Part shown: piece by piece, positions 49,947 through 51,941 of the stretch
Layout: every line of letters begins with the position of its first letter
How positions within the stretch are numbered: the stretch's first letter is position 1
Source: Nitrospina sp.
GTDB taxonomy: Bacteria; Nitrospinota; Nitrospinia; Nitrospinales; JACRGP01
Direction: 5' to 3'
DNA: 64,000 nt
Assembly: GCA_024648695.1 (NCBI GenBank)
Contig: JACAVV010000018.1
Location: 1 to 64,000 of the forward strand
The notes under the pieces: generated by a model
Database searches by the model: none
Seen by the model: only the letters and a program-made list of their open reading frames with translations
What the model was told of the DNA's origin: nothing
Position numbers and translations under genes: made by a program

Positions 49947-49980
49947 GAATCGCATTCCTGTTGATATCGATTCTTATTTT
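49947..49980 (+). terminator. weak terminator after map
   Basis: GAATCG (49947-49952) pairs with CGATTC (49968-49973), 15-nt loop, followed by TTATTTT. Short stem, so only a moderate candidate. Confidence 0.4.
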
Positions 49981-50013
49981 CCATATCAATAATAAAATAT
50001 TTAAATTCAATGG

Positions 50014-50082: not shown

Positions 50083-50559
50083 ATGAAAGGTCATGATGAA
50101 ATAATTGAAGCCCTTAATGATGTGTTAATGGCGGAATTAACGGCGATCAATATTTATTTCATTCATTACAAAATGGAAGAAAACTGGGGCTTTGAAAAAC
50201 TGGCTCAACACGCCAAAAAAGAGTCTTTTGGTGAGATGAAGCATGCTGAAGAAATTATCGAACGAATTCTGTTTTTGGAAGGCGTGCCCAATATGTCCCG
50301 CTATGATGCTGTATTGGTTGGGGAAACTTGCGAAGAGCATTTAAACAATCAATACAAAATCGAGACCCAGCATGTCGAGCGTTTGCGAAAAGCCATTCAG
50401 TTAAGTATGGAAAAGCAGGATTTTGGTACCAAGGAAATGCTGGACCATATTCTACAGGAAACTGAGGAAAGCGCCGATTGGTTGGAAACCCAGTTTCAAC
50501 GAATCAAGGACGTCGGAATTCAAAATTACCTGTCTGAGCATATGCATGTTGAAGAATAA
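50083..50559 (+). CDS. bfr: bacterioferritin with altered ferroxidase site
   Basis: 158 aa, the exact length of E. coli Bfr and alignable without gaps. Haem ligand Met52 is present (GEMKHAE), as are Glu18, Glu51, His54 and Glu94. The positions of ferroxidase ligands Glu127 and His130 are Thr and Ser (ETEESADWLET against DEEGHIDWLET). The diiron site is therefore incomplete, as in haem-carrying subunits of two-subunit bacterioferritins. A second, ferroxidase-competent subunit would be expected elsewhere. Start ATG 50083 with GGAGG 5 nt upstream; TTG 50071 rejected. Convergent with fur. Confidence 0.95.
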   Translation: MKGHDEIIEALNDVLMAELTAINIYFIHYKMEENWGFEKLAQHAKKESFGEMKHAEEIIERILFLEGVPNMSRYDAVLVGETCEEHLNNQYKIETQHVERLRKAIQLSMEKQDFGTKEMLDHILQETEESADWLETQFQRIKDVGIQNYLSEHMHVEE

Positions 50560-50618: not shown

Positions 50619-51047
50619 TTACTTTTTACAATCTTCGCAAATTCCAATAAGGGTTAAACGGTGATAATAAATGCTAAACCCTCGGGATTGCGCCACCTCC
50701 TCCTGATATTGTCGAATTTTAGGATGTTCGAATTCGATAATCTTTCCGCAAACTTCGCAAACCAGATGGTCATGTTGTTCCTGGGTTGAAGACTTTTCAA
50801 ACAGGATGCTTCCGTTAGGCATTATAAACTCCCTGGCCAAACTGCAGGCCGTTAATAATTTCATAGTTCTGTAAACCGTTGCGATTCCGATTTGGGGATC
50901 CAGGTCGCTTGCTTTTTGAAACAGTTTTTCAACGGAAAAATGACCTTCTGTTTGAAGAAAAACTTCAAAAATGAGAACTCTTTGGGGTGTGAGGCGTAAA
51001 CCCAAAGTTTTTATGTGATCCCGAAACCTGTTGAATTCTAATGACAT
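50619..51047 (-). CDS. fur: Fur-family metalloregulator
   Basis: 142 aa from ATG 51047. Winged helix (about 10-85; LTPQRVLIFEVFLQTEGHFS, ATVYRTMKLL), the HDHLVCEVCG metal motif and a C-terminal CEDC, giving two CxxC pairs for structural zinc. An in-frame ATG at 51080 would place the Fur box inside the coding region, so I reject it, although the SD of 51047 (GAAGG) is only 2 nt away. Fe-dependent repressor by context: four matching boxes lie at its own and adjacent promoters. PerR is a less likely alternative. Confidence 0.88.
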   Translation of the reverse strand: MSLEFNRFRDHIKTLGLRLTPQRVLIFEVFLQTEGHFSVEKLFQKASDLDPQIGIATVYRTMKLLTACSLAREFIMPNGSILFEKSSTQEQHDHLVCEVCGKIIEFEHPKIRQYQEEVAQSRGFSIYYHRLTLIGICEDCKK

Positions 51048-51064
51048 AACCTTCTTATTTAAAA

Positions 51065-51079
51065 TGAGAATCATTTTCA
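51065..51079 (-). promoter_or_regulatory. Fur box upstream of fur (autoregulation)
   Basis: TGAGAAT-C-ATTTTCA, a 7-1-7 palindrome with 12 of 14 matches to TGATAATnATTATCA, starting 18 bp upstream of the fur start codon. Confidence 0.75.
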
Positions 51080-51209
51080 TTATTATATGATAACAGGAGA
51101 AATGTCAAAAAAATAATTGGTTAAGGTGGGGAGAGGGCTATAATAAGTATTTATTTACAAAGGTTTAAAAAATAAAATGAAATTTCCTGTATTTTTAAGA
51201 ACATTTTAG

Positions 51210-51275: not shown

Positions 51276-51551
51276 ATGAAAACGACGATTGAGCGGAAAG
51301 AGACTATTGCAGTATGTTCTGGAGCAGGGTGCAGGGCGTGGTCTTCTGAAACGATTTCAAAAAAGCTAAACAATTTGTCCGGTTTATACTCAGAAATGGG
51401 TTACGAAATTGTAGAAGTACCCTGTTTAAAAAAGTGTGGGGGTGGAGCCACGGTTCAGATGAGTGGTTGCTCTCGAGAAGTCAAGATTCGAAAGCCTGAA
51501 GAGGCTTTGCAACTTTTATTTTCTCAGCAAGTGGAGATGGCCATCGCGTAG
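51276..51551 (+). CDS. small thioredoxin-fold [2Fe-2S] ferredoxin-like protein
   Basis: 91 aa. Cysteines C14 and C19 (CSGAGC) and C50 and C54 (CLKKC) give C-x4-C-x30-C-x3-C, the cluster pattern of NuoE/HoxE and of the N-terminal domain of NuoF-like hydrogenase subunits; a fifth Cys (C65) follows. It stands alone as a single domain with its own Fur-controlled promoter, not beside any Nuo or hydrogenase gene. An electron carrier or Fe-S sensor made under iron limitation is plausible, but no specific role is known. Confidence 0.75.
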   Translation: MKTTIERKETIAVCSGAGCRAWSSETISKKLNNLSGLYSEMGYEIVEVPCLKKCGGGATVQMSGCSREVKIRKPEEALQLLFSQQVEMAIA

Positions 51552-51656: not shown

Positions 51657-51941
51657 ATGAGTATTGGAATTTTAGGTGGTTTGGATCGTTTGAAAAGAAA
51701 TTATGAAAAAGAGGGGCGGGACCGGGGATACAAGGTCAAGGTGTTTGGTCAACGGGTTCCAAATCTTTTGCAACGTCTATCCGGGGTGAATGGCATTGTA
51801 CTCTTTACCGGTATGGTATCGCATCCTTTAGCGATGGAAGCCATTCGGTTTGCCAAGCAAAATAACATTCCGGTAGAGCGAACTCATTCCAGCGGTATGT
51901 CCGGATTCAAAAAGTGCCTGGACGAAATATCACTCTTTTGA
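51657..51941 (+). CDS. DUF2325 protein
   Basis: 94 aa matching the DUF2325 pattern: N-terminal GILGGLDRLKRNYEKEGRDRG, central VNGIVLFTGMVSHP and C-terminal HSSGMSGFKKCLDEI. Family function is unknown to me. GGAGG lies 8 nt upstream. Its own strong Fur box and its place between an Fe-S protein and a porin point to a job in iron metabolism (inference). Confidence 0.8.
   Translation: MSIGILGGLDRLKRNYEKEGRDRGYKVKVFGQRVPNLLQRLSGVNGIVLFTGMVSHPLAMEAIRFAKQNNIPVERTHSSGMSGFKKCLDEISLF

Follow-up and report, generated by a model that had tools for sequence, protein, structure and literature searches.

The window analysed here, a 64,000-nucleotide stretch of Nitrospina sp. DNA, carries a bacterioferritin (Bfr) gene whose translation gives a 158-residue protein; the opposite strand is stop-ridden there. 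The gene faces that of a Fur-family regulator:

50083..50559, + strand: bfr, bacterioferritin, 158 amino acids plus stop; matches TIGR00754 and PF00210; good Shine-Dalgarno sequence (ggaggt) on the 5' side
50619..51080, - strand: Fur-family regulator, convergent neighbour of bfr (PF01475, 1.5e–31); adjacency kept in many relatives

The gene order hemW-era-map-bfr, usually followed by the Fur-family gene, is common to relatives. A Fur-box-like word upstream of bfr is strong in three of them (G015, G017, G018). Upstream of the window bfr the Fur-box match is not significant (13/19, p = 0.12), and no Fur box is claimed there. An inverted repeat, TTGATAT-15-ATATCAA, lies upstream of bfr at about 49960–50000 of the window; the Fur-box-like words of the relatives lie at a similar distance. 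On the other side, 51276–51551 (+) encodes a 91-aa Cys-containing protein (GAGCRAW...CLKKCGGGATVQ) that has a thioredoxin-like [2Fe-2S] look and no Pfam or NCBIfam match; a gene for a DUF2325 protein (51657–51941, +) lies 3' of it. Both adjoin bfr-fur in several relatives too.

The best model for the window protein is TIGR00754, the NCBIfam equivalog model of bacterioferritin (177.9 bits, cut-off 125.55 bits), and PF00210 is also matched. Solved Bfr chains align with it end to end (phmmer; E = 4.7e–33 for 1bcf). An AlphaFold2 model (pLDDT 94.5, pTM 0.88) has predicted helices at residues 5–35, 38–64, 83–110, 114–144 and 146–152, that is, a four-helix bundle plus a short fifth helix. The top Foldseek matches of this model are all Bfrs, namely Shewanella SoBfr12, P. 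aeruginosa BfrB and E. coli Bfr (1bcf), with TM 0.97–0.98 and rmsd 0.6–1.0 Å. By curated model, predicted fold and Met52, the window protein is assigned to the Bfr subfamily.

Ferroxidase-site residues across Nitrospinales

As a ruler we used the E. coli Bfr sequence, which is identical to 1bcf, and aligned it with MAFFT. In E. coli Bfr, Fe1 is bound by E18 and H54 and Fe2 by E94 and H130, with E51 and E127 as bridges (PMC4771812). The alignment has zero gaps, and E18, Y25, E47, E51, M52, H54 and E94 are kept. In helix D, T127 replaces Glu and S130 replaces His. The positions of interest are the following (37/37 refers to full-length orthologues):

50134..50136, + strand: E18, site-A (Fe1) ligand, kept; 37/37
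50233..50238, + strand: E51, bridging ligand, and M52, axial haem ligand, kept; 37/37
50242..50244, + strand: H54, site-A ligand, kept; 37/37
50362..50364, + strand: E94, helix-C terminal ligand of site B (Fe2), kept; 37/37
50371..50373, + strand: H97 (CAT) at E94+3, proposed substitute Fe-B ligand; 37/37, plus L021 and L066
50461..50463, + strand: T127 (ACT), replaces bridging Glu127; T/S in all orthologues of the alignment
50470..50472, + strand: S130 (AGC), replaces Fe2 ligand His130; S/A in all orthologues of the alignment

Two of the six ligands of the canonical Bfr centre (E18, E51, H54, E94, E127, H130) are gone, and the window protein is, as judged from its sequence, a Bfr variant without that centre. 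The inner-surface residues H46, D50 and Y58 of E. coli Bfr are not kept either; D50 belongs to an inner-surface electron-transfer site that E. coli Bfr needs for its cofactor mechanism (PMC4771812).

The initial annotation had listed E18, E51, M52, H54 and E94 as present, with T127 and S130 in place of E127 and H130, and the gap-free MAFFT alignment bears this out. Realignment does not bring the Glu and His ligands back. The register of helix D is pinned by D132-W133-L134-E135-T136 and, on the other side, by I123-L124. No His occurs around positions 127–130, so that with this register H130 cannot be recovered by a small shift. The invariant H97 and the loss of H46 and D50 had gone without mention in that annotation.

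Orthologues were collected from 40 genomes of the window's order, Nitrospinales, among 77 genomes of the class. Full-length copies number 37; of the others, one (G029) is broken, one is split and one is cut by contig ends. Adding two cut-off copies, L021 and L066, gives 39 orthologues. Pairwise identity among the full-length copies is 60–96%, and E18, Y25, E47, E51, M52, H54, E94, H97, E128, D132 and W133 are invariant in all of them. At position 127, 34 copies have T and three have S, and at position 130, 34 have S and three have A; L021 and L066 agree, so that E127 and H130 are missing from 39/39 orthologues. Gly takes the place of D50 in 33/37, and the B-channel residues N/D34, D/E66 and D132 are retained among the 37.

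Since the T/S127 and S/A130 pair is fixed in all full-length orthologues, T127/S130 reflect neither chance nor sequencing error; misalignment or a frameshift is excluded by the gap-free alignment together with fixation across the order. The closest orthologue pairs have dN/dS of ~0.02–0.07, indicating strong purifying selection. A relaxed or dying gene is excluded by these values and the residue invariance, and by the same measures the Nitrospinales bfr product is a functional protein under selection. In G029, a 98%-complete genome that also encodes Dps, the orthologue (L067, around 317–690) is broken by stops and a frame change and is either a pseudogene or an assembly error.

Candidate partner subunits

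In hetero-Bfrs generally, haem subunits with impaired sites have partners (PMC12120770), and the initial annotation had raised a partner encoded elsewhere, a second bfr with an intact site and without Met52, as one of two options. We searched the window's own genome and the order with PF00210, rubrerythrin and encapsulin models. The window Bfr is the sole PF00210 protein of its genome (97% complete, 2% contamination), where no such second bfr was found, and that option finds no support. About 30 of the 40 carrier genomes, the single-contig G009 and G047 among them, likewise have no further PF00210 match that exceeds the cut-off. The model search found no encapsulin. Two rubrerythrin-family proteins of the own genome (L100, L101) were considered as partners and set aside, as by sequence they are not cage ferritins. 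Dps is additionally present in G006, G028, G029 and G038.

Four genomes (G018, G023, G043, G057) encode a mini-Bfr of 139–141 aa with an intact site. Its best solved match is 9qq4, a 139-aa chain, presumably that of the 12-mer mini-bacterioferritin described in PMC13168243. Bfr paralogues occur in G004, G015 and G018; they have lost more ligands, and Met52 too, and branch within the Nitrospinales clade of the tree. Because of these worse sites and this origin, they do not qualify as intact partners. The G004 paralogue is a tandem second bfr copy in adjacent ORFs (L003/L054), 61% identical, with D18, G47, L52, T127 and Q130; it lacks the haem ligand and is more degenerate. Those of G018 (L055) and G015 (L056, two adjacent copies) are very fast-evolving, with nearly all ferroxidase ligands and Met52 gone (for example L18, A51, L52, N54, N127 and R/Q130, and among them also Q18 and S51).

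Apart from the mini-Bfr of four genomes, no intact Bfr or Ftn partner was found among the Nitrospinales genomes, and for want of one in the order the two-subunit model fails. A hetero-oligomer, in which an intact haem-free partner encoded elsewhere supplies the ferroxidase activity, has precedent in Magnetospirillum and Shewanella (PMC6529640, PMC12120770), and the mini-Bfrs and the paralogues of G004, G015 and G018 might be seen as candidates. However, the own genome, like G009 and G047, has no second PF00210 protein, the sites of the paralogues are worse than that of the window Bfr, and a 12-mer subunit of the 9qq4 type is not expected to join a 24-mer. We give this reading hardly any credence, and for the own genome it is close to refuted.

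His97 and the proposed iron centre

H97 lies one helical turn past E94 on helix C and is present in 39/39 Nitrospinales orthologues. The same position is Gly in E. coli Bfr and mostly Ala, Asn, Val or Gly in the other Bfrs examined. In rubrerythrin, Glu97 serves as an Fe1-side ligand. The rubrerythrin helix-C pair reads E94-x-x-E97 (1b71 sequence); helix C was not aligned in our profile comparison with rubrerythrin, and the equivalence of H97 and Glu97 is one of offset only. The Fe-B ligands of PmFTN, a diatom ferritin, are Glu48, Glu94 and Glu130, and in its E130A variant Asn-97, again at E94+3, coordinates Fe-B; fast oxidation is kept, mineralisation is ~tenfold higher and site B is occupied at 15–35% (PMC4653698). 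In sulerythrin, Glu95 at helix-C Glu+3 lies against a bound dioxygen species (PMC9589262).

These three precedents indicate that a side chain at Glu+3 can reach the metals. Given this reachable offset and its fixation exactly where His130 is missing, H97 is best read as an Fe-B histidine that has shifted from helix D (position 130) to helix C. The iron served by H97 may be A, B or both, and the PmFTN precedent is not exact, as PmFTN retains its own helix-D context. A Verrucomicrobia clade with S127/S130 has Gly97, so H97 is not obligatory after loss of the helix-D ligands; it arose once, with no independent gains by which to judge its link to that loss.

Overall, we lean slightly toward a Bfr that stands alone and binds haem, with a diiron centre remodelled to an asymmetric Ftn-like form, not lost. 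A single self-sufficient subunit would form a homopolymeric 24-mer with Met52-bound haem. Site A would be complete (E18, E51 and H54, with Y25 nearby) and site B would consist of E51, E94 and H97 and have only one bridging carboxylate, such that the near-symmetric, two-Glu-bridged Bfr centre would have given way to an asymmetric, weakly held Ftn-like one. Fe2+ should be able to enter and bind, because site A is complete and N/D34, D/E66 and D132 are kept. It would be oxidised at the centre and then moved into the cavity; such a displacement-type ferroxidase is favoured by the Ftn-like asymmetry and the loss of the D50 site, along with H46 and Y58, although these last two are often missing also from intact Bfrs of other phyla. 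For release, haem and a BFD-type ferredoxin would reduce the iron. BFD-domain proteins are encoded in the own genome; one of them, the C12 protein, has the canonical CxC...CxxC spacing, and since its best NCBIfam match is NifU it counts as a candidate ferredoxin partner only.

The three Glu and two His that remain suffice for one six-coordinate metal, and a mononuclear site that holds one metal tightly (E18, E51, H54, E94, H97), for slow single-ion oxidation or for a structural metal, Zn for instance, is unlikely, if still to be reckoned with. The match of E94xxH97 to the rubrerythrin E94xxE97 position and the low occupancy of site B in PmFTN E130A would suit it. However, centres of the H-chain and Ftn kind work with two irons in the absence of Bfr-type helix-D ligands, and the rubrerythrin profile comparison comes without an alignment of helix C. 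Somewhat less probable again is a ferroxidase-dead, L-chain-like shell, in which oxidation would fall to the mineral surface or to other oxidants and haem would serve release. It would fit the loss of D50 and H46 on top of 2/6 ligands, and E. coli Bfr centre variants still finish oxidation by a slow, centre-independent route (PMC4771812). Against it, none of the four remaining ligands varies among the 37 orthologues (60–96% pairwise identity), nor do Y25 and W133, and truly degenerate paralogues lose the remaining ligands, unlike the Nitrospinales orthologues. With site-A ligands invariant here and lost where Bfr sites really degenerate, the centre is probably remodelled and not degenerate. 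Loss of the bridging carboxylate E127 could nonetheless badly slow diiron chemistry.

Use of another metal, or a role other than storage (for instance redox buffering, or dealing with peroxide through haem and a single metal), strikes us as quite improbable. The adjoining Fur-family gene and the Fur-box-like word upstream in several relatives are compatible with it, but the B-channel residues and the haem ligand are kept and we have no positive evidence for another metal. The second option of the initial annotation, a cage without standard ferroxidase activity, survives as regards the non-standard chemistry; the centre itself is better called remodelled with His97 than lost.

The Nitrospinales Bfr is a real clade-fixed variant for which the two-subunit reading is rejected and a remodelled centre is most likely. 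We propose more tentatively that it represents an undescribed class of haem-Bfr fixed in Nitrospinales, a lone, asymmetric, displacement-type ferroxidase with the His moved from 130 to 97. That this class is a natural hybrid, with Ftn-like iron uptake and release of the Bfr/haem type, is a suggestion made with the same reserve. Among the papers searched, none relevant to Nitrospina bacterioferritin was found. The E. coli Bfr centre acts as a cofactor while Ftn centres pass iron through, and for the question why, a natural, presumably homopolymeric Bfr that has a proposed substitute His and no helix-D ligands is a ready test case. Nitrospina-type nitrite oxidisers live in the ocean and have a high iron demand, and a Bfr of the window type is usually their only cage ferritin. 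As a caution, a Met52 Bfr with missing ligands need not be half of a two-subunit system.

Comparison with known systems

The window Bfr shares with E. coli Bfr and P. aeruginosa BfrB the fold, length, gap-free alignment, M52, E18/E51/H54, E94, Y25, W133 and D132. It differs from them in T/S127, S/A130 and the new invariant H97, and in not keeping H46, D50 and Y58. The E. coli Bfr centre holds iron as a stable cofactor. The Met52 subunits of hetero-Bfrs (Magnetospirillum Bfr2 and the second subunit of Novispirillum) are alike in combining a haem ligand with an incomplete ferroxidase centre. However, they lose site-A ligands and adjoin the gene of an intact haem-free partner, whereas the Nitrospinales have an invariant site A and lack a partner. 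For Magnetospirillum Bfr2 the listed changes affect E18, H54 and the His of helix D (PMC6529640), and the second subunit of Novispirillum has Q18, D54 and A94 in our alignment.

Ftns, which lack the Bfr Glu127/His130 pair, are active ferroxidases, and asymmetric centres are usual among them. Ftn and H-chain centres (E. coli FtnA, PmFTN) resemble that of the window Bfr in having a full site A, the helix-C Glu and no Glu127/His130. In an alignment that included FtnA, Ftns of the phylum read E126-Q127-x-E129-E130 and the window Bfr E126-T127-E-E129-S130. Unlike Ftns, the window protein is a Bfr by sequence, with the haem ligand Met52, T/S instead of Gln/Glu at 127/130, and His97; it shares the asymmetric-centre trait of Ftns but not their sequence membership.

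The nearest relatives in the tree are a Verrucomicrobia Bfr clade (L126–L130; 53% identity) with M52, E18, E51, H54, E94, S127 and S130, but Gly97. Among the five Verrucomicrobia genomes, G201 and G211 encode no further PF00210 protein, a Dps is the sole addition in G077, and G117 and G335 have extra matches. G335 encodes two Bfr copies of the L126–L130 clade. The Nitrospinales proteins form one clade (100/99), which lies with the Verrucomicrobia S127/S130 clade on the same side of a branch that separates them from intact Bfrs (90/89). The loss of the helix-D ligands may thus be shared by the two clades, and H97 is an addition of the Nitrospinales.
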